Source: an uncultured bacterium (GTDB taxonomy: Bacteria; Bacteroidota; Bacteroidia; CAILMK01). From it: a stretch of DNA of 37,876 nucleotides. The DNA lies in assembly GCA_903829945.1 (NCBI GenBank), contig CAIKRV010000037.1, forward strand, positions 1 through 37,876, read 5' to 3'. The first letter of the stretch is position 1, and every line of letters begins with the position of its first letter. Under the pieces are notes generated by a model that saw nothing but the letters and a program-made list of their open reading frames with translations, searched no databases and was not told where the DNA came from. The translations under genes and the position numbers were made by a program. Below are positions 26,648-37,077 of this stretch, piece by piece.

Positions 26648-28234
26648 TTACACCAATAGCGGCAATTTGGAAGATTTTGATAAAACAGTATCATGCTTCC
26701 AATATATTTCATCTTTGGAATATCCATGCAATAAATGCACGCCACGACTTTCCTTGCGAAGCAGTGCCGACTTAATTATTAAAAATGAAATTTGCGCCAG
26801 ATTACGGAGCTCTATGGTATCCATGCATAATTTATTTTCATGAAACAATTCCGTAGCTATTTGCAAAAAATATTTAGAACTGACTAAAGCATCCTCCAAT
26901 TGCTCTTCCATTCTTAATATTCCTGCATTTTTAGTGGTTAGTTCTTGTATTTTTAATTTATAAGATTTTATAAATCTATGGTCGGCATCTTTTGATGAAA
27001 AATGAAATCTAAATTGATCCATATTTTGAAAGCGATGCATCGTTTCATCCAAAATGACTTTGGATGCATTTTTCGCCATCACAATTGCTTCTAGCAGTGA
27101 ATTACTTGCCAGGCGATTTGCACCATGCATCCCGGTACATGCAGATTCTCCTAATACCAATAAATTTTTAATAGATGTTTTACCACTAAGGCTAGCAACA
27201 ATTCCACCACATAAATAATGCGCTGCAGGGGTAACTGGAATCATTTTTTTATTAATATCTATTCCAATGCTGAGGCACTTCTGAAAAATAGTTGGGAATT
27301 TATTTTTAAGAATAAAAGAAGAGATATGCCTGGCATCTAAAAAAACATTAGGTACTTGTAATTTGAACATTTCATTGGCAATGGCTTGGGAAACGACATC
27401 TCTGGGCGCCAAAGATCCTTGTGGATGGTAAATATCCATAAATTCAAAATCATTTTCTAGTTTTAATACAGCACCTGCACCGCGAAGTGCCTCTGAAATT
27501 AAAAAAGAATCCGCCTCTGAATGATATAATGCAGTAGGATGAAATTGTACAAACTCCATATTGGCCACCTTTGCTCCTGCTCTGAAAGCTGCAGCAATTC
27601 CATCGCCTGTGGCAATGCTTGGATTGGTGGAATATTTATATACCTTACCTATACCACCACTAGCTAAAATGGTAAATGAAGCACAATATATTATTTGATG
27701 GCCATGTTCAAGATCCAAGGCATGTACGCCATGGCAGCCTTGCTCATCACATATTAAATCTACTACTTGAACATGTTCTCTGATTCGAATTTTAGAATGA
27801 TGGATAACTTGATCAACCAAATTTTCTATAATGGAAAAACCGGTATGATCGCCAATATGCATAATACGATGACTGGAATGCCCTCCTTCCAATCCAAGCT
27901 CGGGTTTGCCATTCATAGCATCAAAATTAATTCCCAATTTTTCCAAATGCTTAATGGCCTCCGGAGCACTTTTCACAATTTCTTCTACGCAATCTTCATG
28001 ACATAATCCTGCCCCCGCTTCCAAAGTATCTTTAATATGCGAGGAAAAACTATCAGTATCATGATTCATGACACTGGCTATTCCTCCTTGAGCATAACGT
28101 GTATTGCTTTCTTTTAAATTTCCTTTTGTAAGGATTAAAACATTATATTTTTCTGCCAAGGATAAAGCACAAATCAAACCGGAAATACCACTTCCTACAA
28201 TTACTACCTCAACATTTTCCACAATATTTTTCAT
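26648..28234 (-). CDS. nadB: L-aspartate oxidase
   Basis: 528 residues. FAD-dependent oxidation of L-aspartate to iminoaspartate, the first step of de novo NAD synthesis. Dinucleotide motif VVIVGSGISGLICALSLAEK (10-29), RYAQGGIASVM, HPTALYH with SEALRGAGAVL and the FAD-binding GESACTGMHGANRLASNSLLEA near 385 are all present. Its ATG overlaps the nadA stop (TAATG), so the two are translationally coupled and the iminoaspartate goes directly to NadA. nadC is not in the window. Confidence 0.95.
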   Translation of the reverse strand: MKNIVENVEVVIVGSGISGLICALSLAEKYNVLILTKGNLKESNTRYAQGGIASVMNHDTDSFSSHIKDTLEAGAGLCHEDCVEEIVKSAPEAIKHLEKLGINFDAMNGKPELGLEGGHSSHRIMHIGDHTGFSIIENLVDQVIHHSKIRIREHVQVVDLICDEQGCHGVHALDLEHGHQIIYCASFTILASGGIGKVYKYSTNPSIATGDGIAAAFRAGAKVANMEFVQFHPTALYHSEADSFLISEALRGAGAVLKLENDFEFMDIYHPQGSLAPRDVVSQAIANEMFKLQVPNVFLDARHISSFILKNKFPTIFQKCLSIGIDINKKMIPVTPAAHYLCGGIVASLSGKTSIKNLLVLGESACTGMHGANRLASNSLLEAIVMAKNASKVILDETMHRFQNMDQFRFHFSSKDADHRFIKSYKLKIQELTTKNAGILRMEEQLEDALVSSKYFLQIATELFHENKLCMDTIELRNLAQISFLIIKSALLRKESRGVHLLHGYSKDEIYWKHDTVLSKSSKLPLLV

Positions 28235-29259
28235 TAAGCAAAATCTAACATTTTTCGAATGGGTAAGTAAGCACGTTCTAATAATTGTTCCTCCAAGTTT
28301 ATTCGGTATAAAGATTCATTTTCTTGATGGAGGGCCTCAAGTGCTTTCAAAGTATTATACAAAGTTATTTTTTTCATATGCGGACAAACAATGCAAGGGG
28401 TAATAAACTTTTTGCTTGGATATAATCCCATTAATGCAGCACCCAAATCACATTCAGATCCCAATATAAAAGTGTCACCGGAAGATGCACCGACATAATT
28501 AATTATATCAGTGGTGCTGCCTACCATACCTTTATTATTTTTTAAAGAAGAGGCAACAGTTCTAGACGGTACTTCCCAATGCAAAAGGACTTCAGCTGTT
28601 GGGTTTGCTGTAGCCAGTTGACTGATATTGCCGGAAAATTGTTCGTGCACTTCACAAGCACCGTTCCACAAAATCAATTTTTTATCGCTGTGATTAGCTA
28701 AATTCTTTTGTAAATTCATCCCCATATATTTATCGGGAATAAATATTAATTCTTTACCTGGAAATGATGCCGCAATGTTAAGTGCATTGCGCGAGGTGCA
28801 ACAAATATCACATTCAGCTTTAGTTTCCGCATAGGTATTTATATATACCATCACCGGTACACCGTGATATTTTGCCTTCAAGGCTTTGACATCTTCTGCT
28901 TTTATGGAAGACGCCAATGAACATCCTGCAGATGGATCAGGAATTAAAACCTTTTTTTGCGGATTTAAAATTTTAGCAGTTTCCGCCATAAATTCAACTC
29001 CGCAAAAAATTATTGCATCTGCTTTTGTTTTACTTGCCTCTATACTTAAACCTAAAGAATCACCTACAAAATCTGCAATACCTCCCTGCGATGCTAATAT
29101 TTGTAACTCAGGAGGCATATAATAATGAGATAACACCACCGCATTCTTTTCCTTCTTTAAGGAACGTATTTTCTCTAATACCGGTAACATGTGTTCCATA
29201 GAACCGGCAGATAAGCCCCCGGTCATAGAGGCTAATTTTGAGACGAAATTCTTATTCAT
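28234..29259 (-). CDS. nadA: Quinolinate synthase NadA
   Basis: 341 residues from ATG 29259; a GTG at 29292 would add 11 residues and cannot be excluded. Condenses iminoaspartate with dihydroxyacetone phosphate using a [4Fe-4S] cluster. Visible: VLSHYYMPPELQ, ADFVGDSLGLS, the cluster Cys in IFCGVEFMAETAKIL, CDICCTSRNA, WNGACEVHEQFS, SECDLGAAL, and CPHMKKITL. The HYY...GDS segment is a few residues longer than in many homologs. Operon with nadB. Confidence 0.93.
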   Translation of the reverse strand: MNKNFVSKLASMTGGLSAGSMEHMLPVLEKIRSLKKEKNAVVLSHYYMPPELQILASQGGIADFVGDSLGLSIEASKTKADAIIFCGVEFMAETAKILNPQKKVLIPDPSAGCSLASSIKAEDVKALKAKYHGVPVMVYINTYAETKAECDICCTSRNALNIAASFPGKELIFIPDKYMGMNLQKNLANHSDKKLILWNGACEVHEQFSGNISQLATANPTAEVLLHWEVPSRTVASSLKNNKGMVGSTTDIINYVGASSGDTFILGSECDLGAALMGLYPSKKFITPCIVCPHMKKITLYNTLKALEALHQENESLYRINLEEQLLERAYLPIRKMLDFA

Positions 29260-29319
29260 AATATTAAAATCAATATTTTCAATCAGGAACACCCTATTAA
29301 AAAAATTGGTATACTTTTA

Positions 29320-29341: not shown

Positions 29342-29371
29342 AATAAAACATGATAGAAATCATATTTTATT
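29342..29371 (-). terminator. Likely terminator of the NorCB-like operon
   Basis: Arms AATAAAA-ATGAT (29342-29354) and ATCAT-TTTTATT (29359-29371) pair with one mismatch around a 4-base AGAA loop; the minus-strand right arm ends TTTTATT. Overlaps the last codon of the NorB-like gene. Confidence 0.5.
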
Positions 29372-30703
29372 CGGTGGAACTTTAAAATTTAACCTTAATA
29401 TTTTAAAAGCCATCAATGCTAATGAACCCAAGGCTAAAGCCACTCCAAAGCCTGCAATGTAAAACCATGTTAAATACGGAACAATTTTGGCATTAATCTG
29501 ACTGAATTGAGTACTTATTTGCTCGGGGCCTGCCAATCCTTTTATGAGTCCTGCCAATATTAAGGCAAGCCAAAAAACAAGCAGTGAAATATTTACTATA
29601 TACCACAAAAATATTATCCATTTGCGATGCCTTTTAAGCACTTCACTTGCATTTTCTTCAATAATATAAAAAATTGAACCCATTAAAATCATTGAATTAA
29701 TGCCAATAGTAGTTCCCATGGCATGAGCAACCGTAATATGTGTACCATGACTAAAGGAATTAAAATATGGGATAGACATAAAAATGGCTAAAATTAAATT
29801 TAACAACAACCAAATTTCAGAGGCTAATAAAAATCGATAAGGAATATTAAAAAGATATTTATTGGCCTCTTGCAATTTTATTCTAAACGACCTGAATATT
29901 GATATGAGGACAATCCATTCTGTCATACTGATGGCATAGGAGATATGCTGTACCCAAAGCGCCGCAGGTAAAATGTAAGTATGATGTCCCCAATTAAACA
30001 TCAAATTTGTGAGTCCTAAGAAATAAAACAGGAAACTTCGGTTCTGATATGCCATTTTTTTATTTCCGCTGATTTTTTCCATCAGGTATATGCTTGTGCC
30101 ATAAATAAGCATATTCCATGAACCTACGATGGAGCCATTGGCTTTCCATTGAATAGTAATATCCCTAATAATATTGGAGCGAAACCATGGTATGAGCCAC
30201 AAATTGGACTCTAAAAAAGCAATCCCAAAAAATATAAAACCACTTGCCCACATCCATACATATACAGGATAAGGTTTATTAATTCTTTTGATTATTGCAA
30301 AGAAATTAACAGATGCCAATAACCAAGCAATTAACAAAGGAACGGATAAAATTGGAGGAAACTCCCAATATTCTCTACCACCAAATTTAGCAAACAAAAA
30401 ACACAAAAAAATCGCAATTATTGTACCTACCCAGAGCCACTGAAATAAGCGCCATAAAAAACCAAATGGCATTTTAGAGGATACTAAGGAACTGCAAAAA
30501 TACATTACACTGCCTAGCGCAGCACTTAAAATCCAAAATACTGCGGCAGATACATGTAATGGTCTACATTGACGAAAACTTAAAATGGAATGCACGGAAC
30601 CAAAAATATAAATATATGCTCCATATAAACCCATCAATAGCGCAAATATTAAAAATAATAAGGACCAACGTAAGATAACTTTTGATACCATGTAATTCTT
30701 CAT
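29360..30703 (-). CDS. NorB-like haem-copper oxidase superfamily subunit I with altered metal ligands
   Basis: 447 residues, about 12 membrane helices, inner membrane. Canonical NorB reduces NO to N2O at a haem b3/FeB site. From memory of Pseudomonas NorB, the low-spin haem ligand H60 is H50 here, the FeB pair H258/H259 is H240/H241 (NWGHH), E280 is E262 and the b3 ligand H347 is H327. Gapless alignment of the next sites shows losses: H207 (FeB) is N189, E211 is V193, E215 is N197 (segment NGSIVGSWN instead of HLWVEGVWE), and H349 (second low-spin haem ligand) is M329 (VAHAMG instead of AAHGH). The frame is intact, and NorC-like partner, operon and regulator site are present, so it is probably functional but not an ordinary NOR. 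Its ATG overlaps the norC-like stop by 4 bases. Confidence 0.8.
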   Translation of the reverse strand: MKNYMVSKVILRWSLLFLIFALLMGLYGAYIYIFGSVHSILSFRQCRPLHVSAAVFWILSAALGSVMYFCSSLVSSKMPFGFLWRLFQWLWVGTIIAIFLCFLFAKFGGREYWEFPPILSVPLLIAWLLASVNFFAIIKRINKPYPVYVWMWASGFIFFGIAFLESNLWLIPWFRSNIIRDITIQWKANGSIVGSWNMLIYGTSIYLMEKISGNKKMAYQNRSFLFYFLGLTNLMFNWGHHTYILPAALWVQHISYAISMTEWIVLISIFRSFRIKLQEANKYLFNIPYRFLLASEIWLLLNLILAIFMSIPYFNSFSHGTHITVAHAMGTTIGINSMILMGSIFYIIEENASEVLKRHRKWIIFLWYIVNISLLVFWLALILAGLIKGLAGPEQISTQFSQINAKIVPYLTWFYIAGFGVALALGSLALMAFKILRLNFKVPPNKI

Positions 30704-31137
30704 CGATTAGAGGGATTAATTTCTCCATACCAATTTTGATTAGCATTTCTATCGGGATATTTGCCACTCTTATCTACATAATCCAAATATTCCAGAATAT
30801 TTGAAATTTGCAAAGAATCTAAATTTAAATTGGGCATGCGTTCCGTACCATTTTTTATAAAAATAGCAGCGTAATTTCTGCCTTTGTTGGGATTAGAAAT
30901 AATATTGGTCAGATCCGGCCCCATATATCCTCCCAAGCCATACAATTGATGGCAGGCATTACAATTGTAGTTTTGCCACAATAATTTGCCTTGCTTTGCA
31001 GCATTTGACATTTCATATTCTTGATTTCCTGAACAATATAAATATATTATTAAGCTATACCCAAAAAAGAAAATACCCAAAAGAAAAAATAAAATTCGTT
31101 TCCAATGGGTACTTACACGTACTTGCAATATTTTCAT
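30700..31137 (-). CDS. NorC-like membrane-anchored cytochrome c
   Basis: 145 residues: one N-terminal membrane anchor (about 13-34), then a periplasmic monohaem domain. CNACH (59-63) binds haem c, and M101 in TERMPNL is the likely axial ligand. The surrounding LLWQNYNCNACHQLYGLGGYMGPDLTNI is typical of NorC, the electron-donating subunit of cytochrome-c-type NO reductases. Stop overlaps the start of the catalytic subunit (30700-30703). Preceded by a promoter with an upstream CRP/FNR-type dyad. Confidence 0.87.
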   Translation of the reverse strand: MKILQVRVSTHWKRILFFLLGIFFFGYSLIIYLYCSGNQEYEMSNAAKQGKLLWQNYNCNACHQLYGLGGYMGPDLTNIISNPNKGRNYAAIFIKNGTERMPNLNLDSLQISNILEYLDYVDKSGKYPDRNANQNWYGEINPSNR

Positions 31138-33031: not shown

Positions 33032-33994
33032 TTAATCCTTTAATAAATGCGCAGCATCCTTAGCAAAGTAGGTTATTATCAATCCTGCACCTGCTCTTTT
33101 TATAGAAAGAAGCATCTCCATCATTACTTTATTTTCATCAATCCAACCCTTTTCAGCCGCAGCCTTAATCATGGCATATTCTCCGCTTACATTATAGGCT
33201 GCAATAGGTAATTTGCTTTGTGCGGCAGCTCTGGCAATAATATCCAAATAAAAAACCGCCGGTTTTACCATCACCATATCTGCACCTTCTGCTTCATCAA
33301 TTTCTATTTCACGCAAGGCTTCCTGAGCATTGGCTACATCCATTTGATAAGAAGAACGATTGCCTGATTGAGGCGCACTATCTGCAGCATCTCTGAAAGG
33401 ACCATAACAAGCAGAAAAGAATTTGGCTGAATAGCCCATTATTGAAGTATTACTATATCCATTTTTATCCAATGCCTCGCGGATGGCTGCTACCTGTCCA
33501 TCCATCATGGCAGACGGTGCTACCACATCAGCTCCTGCCTCCGCATGTGATAAGGCCATCTTTTGTAATAACACCAAACTTTCATCATTTTGTATAATGC
33601 CTTCCTTTAAAATTCCACAATGCCCATGACTGGTATATCCGCATACGCAAACGTCAGTCATTACCACAATTTCAGGTGCTAATTTTTTAAACAAACGAAT
33701 AGACTCTTGAACTGCTCCATCAGGCAAACAACTTTCAGAGGCCATTTCATCTTTGTGCCCGGCTAATCCAAATAATAAAACAGCTTTTAAGCCTGCCTTT
33801 TTAATATTTTCAATTTCACCGGCCAACATATCCACAGAATATCGGTATTGGCCTTTCATCGAGGATATTTCTTCACGAATTCCTTTACCCGGTTTTACAA
33901 ATAGAGGATATATTAAATCATTAACCGATAAACTTGTTTCTGCTATTATTGCCCGCATGGCAGGGCTGGTACGAAGTCTTCTTAATCTTTGCAT
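33032..33994 (-). CDS. hemB: Delta-aminolevulinic acid dehydratase (porphobilinogen synthase)
   Basis: 320 residues from ATG 33994; an ATG at 34012 adds 6 residues and overlaps hemD, but MQRLRRLRTSPAMR matches the family start better. Joins two aminolevulinate into porphobilinogen. Zinc-binding DVCVCGYTSHGHCG (three Cys), active-site Lys in MGYSAKFFSACYGPFRDAADS and MVKPAVFYLDII are present. Last gene of the hemA-C-D-B cluster. Confidence 0.95.
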   Translation of the reverse strand: MQRLRRLRTSPAMRAIIAETSLSVNDLIYPLFVKPGKGIREEISSMKGQYRYSVDMLAGEIENIKKAGLKAVLLFGLAGHKDEMASESCLPDGAVQESIRLFKKLAPEIVVMTDVCVCGYTSHGHCGILKEGIIQNDESLVLLQKMALSHAEAGADVVAPSAMMDGQVAAIREALDKNGYSNTSIMGYSAKFFSACYGPFRDAADSAPQSGNRSSYQMDVANAQEALREIEIDEAEGADMVMVKPAVFYLDIIARAAAQSKLPIAAYNVSGEYAMIKAAAEKGWIDENKVMMEMLLSIKRAGAGLIITYFAKDAAHLLKD

Positions 33995-33995
33995 A

Positions 33996-34820
33996 TTATA
34001 CTGTATTTTCATTCCTGAATTCAGGTGTATTTCTTTTATTTGTATGATTGGAAAAATATTCCAGCATGGAAGCTATTAATCCATCAATAGTAAATGGTTT
34101 AGCAATAATATCTACAGTTAGGCCATGTCCTCTGGCGGTATCTGCCGTATGCGGACCAATACAAGCAATTAAATGCTTATTAATATTTAATTGCAAAGGG
34201 CGAAGAAGTTCAATTAATGCCTCAACCGAAGATGAACTTGTAAAGGTGATAATATCAATACCTGCCGTAAAAGTTTGCAGGATATAATCATCCGCAATTT
34301 CATTTTTGCGGGTATTATAAAATGCTATTTCACACACTTGGGCATTGCGTCCTGATAAAATTTGTCTTAGTTTACCTTTATTAATATCCGTGGTTGGTAT
34401 CAATACATTTTTACCACTCACATCAGGGAGTGATTCTGCCAGTACTTCGGCAGTATGTTCTGCGGCCACAAAGTGCACTTCAATGCCATATTTTTCAAGC
34501 ATCAGCGCCGTAGCAGGTCCCACAGAGGCTATTTTTGTACCGCCCAATATATTTTTAAAAAGGCGTAAATATTCCAATCTTTCCACAAAGTAACGAACCG
34601 CATTTGTACTGGTAAAAACGATCCAATCATATTTTGAAAGATCTTCCAAAGCAGCATCTATTTCAGAATAATCCTCAGGCAAAGTTATTTTAATGGTAGG
34701 CAATAAGTAAATATTTGCGCCTTCGGCTATGAGTTTACTGGCAAGTTCAAAGGATTGTTCCTGGGGACGAGTTACCAGTACATTTTTACCGTTAAGGAGC
34801 TTTTCTGAAGTTTCTACCAT
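33996..34820 (-). CDS. hemD: Uroporphyrinogen-III synthase
   Basis: 274 residues, two Rossmann-like domains. Weakly conserved family, but VLVTRPQEQSFELASKLIAEGANIYLLPTIKITLP, WIVFTSTNAVRYF, IASVGPATALMLEKYG, VLIPTTDINKG and IITFTSSSSVEAL, IACIGPHTADTARGHGL are its blocks. Closes hydroxymethylbilane to uroporphyrinogen III. 33 bases after hemC. Confidence 0.9.
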   Translation of the reverse strand: MVETSEKLLNGKNVLVTRPQEQSFELASKLIAEGANIYLLPTIKITLPEDYSEIDAALEDLSKYDWIVFTSTNAVRYFVERLEYLRLFKNILGGTKIASVGPATALMLEKYGIEVHFVAAEHTAEVLAESLPDVSGKNVLIPTTDINKGKLRQILSGRNAQVCEIAFYNTRKNEIADDYILQTFTAGIDIITFTSSSSVEALIELLRPLQLNINKHLIACIGPHTADTARGHGLTVDIIAKPFTIDGLIASMLEYFSNHTNKRNTPEFRNENTV

Positions 34821-34853
34821 GTCAATATTAAATATCCAAATTTACGCTAAACA

Positions 34854-35747
34854 TTATAATTTTATCTTAGCTAACAATTCATTGGCCAAAGCTTTTCCAA
34901 TGGAAGCGGCATCATGTTTAGGGCCTTGTATTTGTGCTTTTACCATTTTGCTACCATCCTCATTGCAATACATGCCTTCCAAAACTATGGTATCGTTCAC
35001 TATTCGTGCAAATGAAGCCATCGGCATTCTACAACCGCCACCGGCTGCTTTTAAAAATTCACGTTCTGCACAAACAGCAATTTCAGTTTCAATATCATGA
35101 ATTTTGCGAACGATTTCTTTAGTAAATGTATCATCGGAACGTGTTTCAATGGCTAAAGCGCCTTGGGCTACGGCCGGCAAAAATTCTTCTATTTCAAAAA
35201 TATACCCGGCTCTATCCTGCATGCCTACCCTATTTAAGCCTGCCAGTGCCAATACCACTGCATCAAGCTCGCCATCGGATACTTTATTCATCCGAGTAAT
35301 AATATTGCCATGAAGGGCTACTATATTCAAATCCGGACGTAATGCTTTTATTTGATATGAGCGACGCAATGAACTGGTGCCTATACTTGCACCCATTGGC
35401 AAATCTTTAAAAGATAAATTATCCCGACTTACCAAACAATCCCTATGCTCCCCTCTGATGGGAACACAGGATACACTAAGCCCATCAGGCTGCTCTACCG
35501 GCATATCTTTATAACTATGAACTGCCAAGTCAATATCGCCATTTATTAGTGCATGTTCAACTTCTTTTACCCATGCTCCTATTTCCTGGATTAAACCCAA
35601 ATCACCACTTGTTTTGATGGTTTTAATTTCAAAAGTAACATTTGGGTTAGCTGCTTGAATATGCCCTAACAACATTTTGGATTGTGCCAATGCAAGCACA
35701 CTGCCTCGGGTGCCTACAGTAAGTTTTACAGTATCTTGATTAGACAT
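34854..35747 (-). CDS. hemC: Porphobilinogen deaminase (hydroxymethylbilane synthase)
   Basis: 297 residues. Dipyrromethane cofactor Cys is C239 (AAGGGCRMPM); VGTRGSVLALAQ, HSYKDMP (77-83) and GTSSLRR (123-129) are present. One odd residue: the usual LRGN is LHGN (H146). The replaced Arg corresponds to E. coli R149/human R167, a substrate/cofactor contact. The next Arg (R152, E. coli R155) is kept. Middle of the heme operon. Confidence 0.95.
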   Translation of the reverse strand: MSNQDTVKLTVGTRGSVLALAQSKMLLGHIQAANPNVTFEIKTIKTSGDLGLIQEIGAWVKEVEHALINGDIDLAVHSYKDMPVEQPDGLSVSCVPIRGEHRDCLVSRDNLSFKDLPMGASIGTSSLRRSYQIKALRPDLNIVALHGNIITRMNKVSDGELDAVVLALAGLNRVGMQDRAGYIFEIEEFLPAVAQGALAIETRSDDTFTKEIVRKIHDIETEIAVCAEREFLKAAGGGCRMPMASFARIVNDTIVLEGMYCNEDGSKMVKAQIQGPKHDAASIGKALANELLAKIKL

Positions 35748-35853
35748 CTTTAAAATTATTTTGGATAATAACGAAGTACTTTGTTTACGTTTTTAATACA
35801 AACATACAAAGCTTTTAATATTGGAAGTGCCATTAATGAAGAAACTTCAAACT

Positions 35854-37077
35854 TTATAGGTCAAAGAGTTCCTTGAAGGTATGGACCGGATTTTGTTCCA
35901 TGTCGGGCGATGTGGCAAAAGTTCTTAGTTTCTCAATAGGTTTACCTGAAACTCTTCTGGCAACACGACTGATCAGGTTTTCAATTATTTTTTGTTGGTG
36001 CTCATCAAGTTTTCCTAATTTAGGGAGCACCCAATGCAATTCCTCTTCTTGAATTTTACTTAATTTATCAAAGTAAGACGTAATAATAGGACTCACTTCA
36101 CGAGTATTTAACCAATCGGAGTATTCTTCAATTTCCTCTTCAATAATGCCCATAGCTCTAGGAACTTCGTCCTGTCTTTTTTGCATACTTTCAGAGGTAA
36201 TAGATTTTAAATCATCTAAATCATATAACTTTACACCGTCCAATTCCTTAATTTTATAATCAAAATTTCTTGGCAAACCCAGGTCAATTAAAGTTTTACC
36301 TGAATTTGAAAAAGTTTGCAGATTCGTGTAACTTAAAATATGTTCTTCTACATGTGAGGCTCCGATTATAACATCCACTTGATGGATGGAAGCAGCGACT
36401 TCATGCATAAGGATGGCTTCACCTCCGGTGGCATTGGCCAATAATTTGGCACGCTCTAATGTTTTACTGGCAATAATTAAATTCTTAACGCCTCTTTTTT
36501 CAATAAGCTTTAACATCAAGGTGGCCATTTCGCCGGTACCTAATACCATGACGGAAGTTTTACTGATGTCCTTATGAATGTCTTTCATTATATCATAAGA
36601 AACAGATGCCAAAGAAACTGGATATTTTCCTATGGCAGTTTCTTTACGAACTTTTTTGCCGGTAAAAATTGCTTTGCGTATAAACTCATTAAATACAGGA
36701 CCAATAGCGCCTTCTTCTTGAGCAATCATGAAATCATTTCGAATTTGGCCTAAAATTTCATGTTCACCAAGGGCTTGTGATTCTAATCCTGATGCCGTGC
36801 AAAACAAATGTTTAATGGCATCATAATTATTGTCAAAAACAGATAGGTAAGGCGTTAAATCTCCAAATTGAGCAAAGAAAGACATTAAAGGTGCGATAGA
36901 ATCGGTCAAAGCATACACAGATAAACGATTGCAGGTGGCAATGATAAAAACCTCATCTGCAAATGGTTTTAAGCTATGTAAGGCACCTCTCAATTGATCC
37001 TTAGAAAAGGAAATATTTTCGCGGACAGCCAAAGGTGCTTTTTGATGACTTATCTCTACTCCGAAAATTCTTTTCAT
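35854..37077 (-). CDS. hemA: Glutamyl-tRNA reductase
   Basis: 407 residues, committed step of the C5 route to aminolevulinate. HQKAPLAVRE (11-20), catalytic Cys49 in ATCNRLSVYA, SGLESQALGEHEILGQIR, the NADPH domain start VMVLGTGEMATLMLKLIEKRG, and a C-terminal dimerisation region are present. First of hemA-hemC-hemD-hemB; hemL is elsewhere. 106 bases to hemC. Promoter GATCTTTG (37105-37112) and a PerR/Fur-like palindrome lie upstream. Confidence 0.95.
   Translation of the reverse strand: MKRIFGVEISHQKAPLAVRENISFSKDQLRGALHSLKPFADEVFIIATCNRLSVYALTDSIAPLMSFFAQFGDLTPYLSVFDNNYDAIKHLFCTASGLESQALGEHEILGQIRNDFMIAQEEGAIGPVFNEFIRKAIFTGKKVRKETAIGKYPVSLASVSYDIMKDIHKDISKTSVMVLGTGEMATLMLKLIEKRGVKNLIIASKTLERAKLLANATGGEAILMHEVAASIHQVDVIIGASHVEEHILSYTNLQTFSNSGKTLIDLGLPRNFDYKIKELDGVKLYDLDDLKSITSESMQKRQDEVPRAMGIIEEEIEEYSDWLNTREVSPIITSYFDKLSKIQEEELHWVLPKLGKLDEHQQKIIENLISRVARRVSGKPIEKLRTFATSPDMEQNPVHTFKELFDL

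Follow-up and report, generated by a model that had tools for sequence, protein, structure and literature searches.

A conserved clade of NorB-like haem-copper oxidase proteins in Bacteroidota that lacks the helix VI metal ligands and is linked to NO and N2O genes

Common in environmental Bacteroidota is a family of membrane proteins that forms a clade of its own in the C-type/nitric oxide (NO) reductase part of the haem-copper oxidase (HCO) superfamily, and from which the His and Glu ligands of the non-haem metal (FeB or CuB) on transmembrane helix VI (TM VI) are missing, whichever register is chosen for the helix. The member with which we are concerned here is encoded on the minus strand at 29360..30703 of a 37,876-nucleotide stretch of DNA from an uncultured bacterium of the class Bacteroidia (contig CAIKRV010000037.1 of assembly GCA_903829945.1; the whole stretch is called the window below), next to a gene for a NorC-like cytochrome c. 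This pair of genes is strongly linked to genes of NO and nitrous oxide (N2O) metabolism, and we tentatively favour a predicted activity in which NO is reduced or removed at haem b3 in a rebuilt distal pocket.

The open reading frame (ORF), described as intact in an initial annotation made from the sequence alone, is indeed so, starting with ATG and encoding 447 amino acids. Pfam assigns the protein to COX1, the subunit I family of the HCOs, with 88.5 bits against a cut-off of 34.8; no specific model for it was found in NCBIfam, where the matches to CcoN are sub-threshold only. An AlphaFold2 (AF2) model built from 65 sequences (pLDDT 89.4, pTM 0.91) has the 12-TM HCO fold, and its nearest structures are CcoN (PDB 3mk7, Z 40.7) and the cytochrome c-dependent NO reductase cNOR (PDB 4xyd, Z 40.3), which are tied within a range of Z 38-41 for these two types, with the ba3 and aa3 oxidases scoring lower. 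The coupling to a NorC-like cytochrome with a CNACH motif, also part of the initial annotation, was confirmed: a gene for a 145-residue monohaem cytochrome c, with Met101 as the likely haem ligand, lies at 30700..31137 on the minus strand, its stop overlapping the start of the NorB-like gene by 4 nt. Such a partner adjoins 116/129 of the homologues, with CxxCH and the axial Met101 present in 116/116, and some of the homologues for which none was found lie at contig ends, at loci where genes have been inserted, or beside mis-called ORFs in GC-rich sequence.

Metal and haem sites

HCOs are defined by a sextet of His residues, two of them ligands of the low-spin haem, one the proximal ligand of the high-spin haem and three the ligands of FeB or CuB (PMC3413370). 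Across 129 aligned family members (115 of them distinct), four of the six are kept in 129/129, the TM VI His is gone and the second low-spin His is a Met. The residues invariant in 129/129 are H50, K187, G190, G194, N197, W238, H240, H241, Y243, P246, M260, E262, H327 and M329. Among them (all coordinates on the minus strand) are His50, the first axial ligand of low-spin haem b on TM II (30554..30556); the retained His240-His241 pair of TM VII (29981..29986); Glu262, which corresponds to the Glu of TM VIII replaced by Gln in NO dismutases (29918..29920); and His327, the proximal ligand of high-spin haem b3 (29723..29725), so that the five residues first listed as kept are kept in every member. 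Met329 (29717..29719) stands in place of the second low-spin-haem His, as had been claimed from its match to His349 of NorB, and is Met in 129/129; a gapless alignment of TM X gives HxM for the family against HxH in cNOR, CcoN and the qNOR/NO dismutase (NOD) group among rows with a motif match. Low-spin haem with His/Met ligation is not known to us from any HCO.

In TM VI, columns 184-203, the stretch that carries the FeB/CuB ligands in relatives, hold no His, Asp or Glu in any of the 129 members. The segment K187-A188-N189-G190 (30134..30145), in which K187 is invariant, occupies the place of the relatives' FeB/CuB His, and V193-G194-S195-W196-N197 (30113..30127), in which G194 and N197 are invariant and an acidic residue is absent, the region of cNOR Glu211 and Glu215. 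The initial annotation had set Asn189 against His207, and of this claim the loss of the His stands, while the register is probably shifted by one position. Residue 189 (30137-30139) is variable (N in 59 members, Y in 55, L in 6, G in 4, M in 3, A in 1 and S in 1), and Gly190 (30134-30136) is found in 129/129. The spacing from the QW motif to the HH motif is 53 in 123/129 members, equal to that in 11/11 CcoN sequences, and at the fourth position past the Trp CcoN has His where the family has Gly190, which makes Gly190, not N189, the most likely counterpart of the lost His. The N189 mapping comes from alignment to cNOR, which has one extra residue between the two anchors (a spacing of 54, counted by hand on cNOR sequences), and a profile alignment to cNOR (hhalign) with one in-helix gap still yields the N189/V193/N197 mapping, which leaves G190 as the likelier of two registers. 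Likewise, the acidic residues to which V193 and N197 had been matched (Glu211 and Glu215) are absent, and the residue-by-residue mapping depends on that one-gap alignment.

Of the altered residues proposed at first, N197 and M329 are shared by all 129 homologues and N189 is not; the changed metal site and the His/Met arrangement at the low-spin haem are nonetheless fixed across the whole family, with no other His or Glu at the TM VI positions or at that of His349 in any member. Because of this invariance the altered residues reflect neither chance nor sequencing error, a possibility that had been raised for the single sequence, and decay of a single gene is ruled out on the same grounds.

Phylogeny, distribution and relation to known enzymes

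The family is monophyletic in two maximum-likelihood trees (support 98/99 and 100/99) and lies outside cNOR, itself monophyletic (99/96 and 100/98), as well as outside qNOR/NOD and CcoN. When the tree is rooted on CcoN the family is sister to cNOR plus qNOR, a placement in which long branches are in play, and the AU test does not reject (p 0.227) a clade that unites the family with cNOR alone. The initial description of the enzyme as derived from a NO reductase (NOR) was not borne out, since the clade lies outside cNOR and qNOR/NOD in both trees, and no description of it was found in the open-licence literature. A long branch beside CcoN in these data belongs to a protein annotated as 'cbb3 subunit I' on a Phyllobacterium plasmid (L167:2324-3757), which is without the typical TM VI and GPHH motifs of CcoN.

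Of the 295 genomes of the class Bacteroidia that we sampled, 59 encode a clear homologue, with 36-49% identity to the protein in the window and E values below 1e-70. In the species-level genomes of GTDB, 553 loci were confirmed; the 80 listed are mostly from Bacteroidota, contigs labelled Alphaproteobacteria are also represented, and one member belongs to the cultured Chitinophaga silvisoli (NZ_QTJV01000015). A differently drawn sample of the phylum had the family in 7/395 genomes, which indicates that it is concentrated in certain lineages. The loci in metagenome-assembled genomes (MAGs) labelled Alphaproteobacteria (L131, L136, L156 and L162, two of them Emcibacteraceae), whose flanks were viewed briefly, form one tight subclade, which suggests transfer out of Bacteroidota.

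Among the closest known enzymes is cNOR (PDB 3o0r, 4xyd), with which the family shares the HCO fold, a NorC-like haem c subunit, the TM VII HH pair, the proximal His and the TM VIII Glu. It differs from cNOR in its separate clade, in an identity of only 23-25%, in the absence of the TM VI His and Glu ligands, in a predicted His/Met rather than bis-His low-spin haem, and in the absence of NorD outside genomes that also have cNOR. Canonical cNOR of Bacteroidota keeps HLWVEGVWE, GTGHH and HxH and is accompanied by norQD; plain cNOR identity is ruled out by the separate clade and by the presence of this full-ligand form in the same phylum, and the altered residues, which might have occurred widely in ordinary active NORs, occur in a separate clade instead. 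CcoN of the C-type cbb3 oxidase gives the highest structural score and has the same TM VI-VII spacing, but it has a CuB His where the family has Gly, a second His in the TM X HxH where the family has Met, an active-site Tyr, a bis-His haem b and different partner subunits, and the family lies outside its clade. While qNOR has a fused N-terminal domain and about 750 residues, the 447-residue family protein has a separate cytochrome gene.

NOD, likewise related to the HCOs and altered in its FeB ligands, belongs to N-oxide metabolism; HN and TLQ are its described hallmarks (PMC3413370). In NOD, however, which is qNOR-like and has about 780 residues, one TM VII His is Asn and the TM VIII Glu is Gln, with the TM VI His and Glu and the HxH kept, in contrast to the family protein, which keeps H240, H241 and E262. 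The remark in the initial annotation that the FeB changes of NODs are not this set therefore holds. NOD-type proteins (HN, TLQ) are present in five sampled target genomes, that is, genomes with the family (G014, G019, G096, G187 and G242), in some genomes only 2.6-4.2 kb from the family gene; NO dismutase identity is ruled out by the invariance of H240/H241/E262 and by these proteins being encoded by separate genes. NOD-type proteins with SHNFYW and TLQ were also seen more generally in Bacteroidia (L040:1060-3390; also L039, L052 and L195-L198). Alternative NOR families (eNOR, sNOR, gNOR, nNOR and bNOR), marked by a relationship to B-type oxidases, have been described (PMC11388526); these were compared by description only, and the structures nearest to the family protein are of the C-type and cNOR, with ba3 lower.

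Genomic context

Clade II nosZ is found in 47/59 target genomes versus 47/236 of the others (odds ratio 15.75, p 1.5e-17, a p value that overstates certainty as the genomes are related by descent), and nirK in 11/59 versus 10/236. Canonical cNOR is present in 12/295 genomes (one a fragment) and qNOR/NOD-type proteins in another 12, and 49/59 target genomes are without canonical cNOR or qNOR/NOD at E<=1e-20, B-family NORs not having been searched. NorD was missing in 55/59 target genomes, being present only in four with canonical cNOR (NorQ was not searched separately), and this absence is in keeping with a protein for which FeB insertion is unnecessary. NorQD is not a universal need of NORs, since qNOR does without it.

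Neighbours were counted in 120 loci (about 1.56 Mb, some genomes counted twice). Those linked to NO or N2O are Rrf2 (35 loci), RIC (31), FNR-type regulators (23) and NosD (16); for RIC, about 0.5 of the 120 loci would be expected at one copy per genome, so that by this rough estimate 31 is a large excess. Other neighbours are tyrosine phenol-lyase/tryptophanase (27), proline dehydrogenase (22), QueD (21) and NrdJ (19), and MbnP and MbnH each occur in 20 of the 120 loci. Gene pairs for MbnP and MbnH, copper-linked di-haem proteins, recur near the family gene, for example in L061, L040, L055, L071 and L089. In one locus, L071, the row of genes is that for Rrf2, an HCO-fold protein, QueD, MbnP, MbnH, the NorC-like cytochrome, the family protein, a cytochrome c, fasciclin and NosZ, followed by NosD-F-Y, in which NosF and NosY were assigned by reading the translations. 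In L141:447-7317 a canonical norC-norB-RIC-norQ-norD cluster lies directly upstream of the NorC-like/NorB-like pair on the same strand, and L150 matches it, with the same spacing of the pair to NorD and RIC; counts of NOD neighbours include cross-matches to cNOR in these two loci.

The HCO-fold neighbour is a membrane protein of 400-430 residues with an HAHSHFA motif that was seen near the family gene in 24/120 loci (for example L089:8354-9625 on the plus strand, and L071:11614-12804 and L059:15635-16876 on the minus strand) and has no Pfam or NCBIfam match. Its AF2 model (pLDDT 88.7) shows a complete 12-TM HCO fold that matches CcoN with Z 37 across 409 residues, a relationship that profile alignment barely detects; H45/H47/H49, H181 and H318 are invariant, and there is no invariant TM VII His pair. 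It makes up a cryptic HCO-fold family, perhaps NnrS-like in role, although identity with NnrS found no backing in a Pfam match or in hhalign (E 0.7).

The host genome of the window (2.9 Mb, 97 contigs) encodes as its only other COX1 proteins CtaD and a CcoN-CcoO fusion, so that O2 reduction in the host is covered elsewhere. In the window, nadA (quinolinate synthase; 28234..29292, minus strand) begins the genes downstream, 67 bp from the NorB-like gene, followed by nadB (L-aspartate oxidase; 26648..28234, minus strand), and the two recur as family neighbours in 20/120 and 19/120 loci respectively. Upstream on the same strand, at 33032-37077, is a haem-biosynthesis cluster (HemB, HemD, HemC and a HemA-like protein, assigned by reading translations). 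FNR-type boxes in the window (55 matches versus 54 expected) were uninformative, and promoter and terminator scans gave results at or near chance.

Possible roles of the complex

In the reading we favour, the protein would be subunit I of a two-subunit, membrane-bound complex fed by cytochrome c, in which electrons would pass from a periplasmic cytochrome c to the NorC-like haem c, whose conserved site residues are His and Met, on to a haem b with His50 and Met329 as predicted ligands where relatives have two His, and then to haem b3. There NO would bind, its most likely fate being reduction to N2O. Instead of the classical FeB with three His and one Glu, the distal pocket may contain the His pair, perhaps holding a two-His-bound metal, with Lys187 and Asn197. 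The complex would serve to remove NO in Bacteroidota that respire N2O or live at low oxygen. A haem reaction that consumes electrons is what the conserved NorC-like donor points to, together with haem b and haem b3, and the NO-linked neighbour genes point to NO as its ligand; on these features the complex probably has NO reductase activity. A broader proposal, which we consider doubtful, is that the family is a widespread, undescribed class of NORs that dispense with the classical non-haem FeB in reducing NO on haem, have a low-spin haem of the His/Met kind, and serve as the main NO consumer of many nosZ-bearing Bacteroidota that surveys count as nor-less.

Several observations weigh against NO reduction. 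The cNOR made without norQDEF is loaded with haem, lacks FeB and is inactive, so that the cNOR model does not predict a haem-only NO reductase (PMC9976466); that preparation is likewise a haem-only complex of the NOR type, but its defect arose in laboratory assembly and its ligands are intact, while replacement of the ligands is family-wide here. In the window's own genome nosZ, NirK over the cut-off, canonical NOR and RIC were all not found. Finally, canonical cNOR is also present in four target genomes, two MAGs having both in one gene string, from which it follows that the role is perhaps not simple NO reduction.

A different but rather unlikely explanation is that haem b and haem b3 form a redox or NO-binding module, through which NosZ or other partners would exchange electrons with the membrane or the cytochrome c pool, or which would gate that flow when NO binds haem b3. 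The loss of catalytic metal ligands from an intact haem chain, the position of the genes inside nos clusters in some genomes and the strong co-occurrence with nosZ all agree with such a relay, but a NorC-like donor suits an enzyme that consumes electrons, and the existence of 47 nosZ genomes without the family and of 12 target genomes without nosZ means that the protein is not a required electron donor of NosZ. Unlikely too is a disguised binuclear NO (or O2) reductase of the conventional kind, with Cu or Fe still at His240/His241 and a non-classical third ligand. The invariance of His240, His241, W238, Y243, N197 and K187 is hard to explain without a bound metal or ligand, and the copper-linked MbnP/MbnH genes are consistent with this arrangement; it is set against a TM VI stretch free of His, Asp and Glu, the lack of NorD outside cNOR genomes and, for O2, the separate CtaD and CcoN of the host.

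We regard as improbable a dedicated NO sensor or scavenger, in which NO bound to haem b3 would alter the cytochrome's redox state, thereby signalling or storing NO without turnover: the linkage to Rrf2 and FNR-type regulators and an altered site suited to binding without turnover speak for it, but a signalling domain is absent, the cytochrome c partner is conserved and the genes are paired like those of a respiratory complex. That the protein is just an ordinary cNOR whose active site has decayed, or whose sequence was misaligned, is hardly credible despite its distant similarity to cNOR and its similar partner gene, as the altered residues are invariant across 115 distinct members, the clade is separate and canonical cNOR stands alongside it in some genomes.

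Surveys discard NorB-like proteins that are without the metal ligands (PMC9188126, PMC12569097), and in one large survey Bacteroidota supply most of the 'terminators', 53% (PMC12569097). Considering that a conserved clade breaks two of the six His positions and yet tracks nosZ and NO-stress genes, our analysis suggests that filters based on the ligands conceal a genuine system of NO handling in this phylum. The clade may thus be an unrecognised bacterial route of NO handling. If its members reduce NO, they would show that NO reduction can proceed without FeB, and the need for a binuclear centre could be tested in a natural enzyme; if they do not, the clade would be a natural haem-only member of the HCO superfamily with another role.
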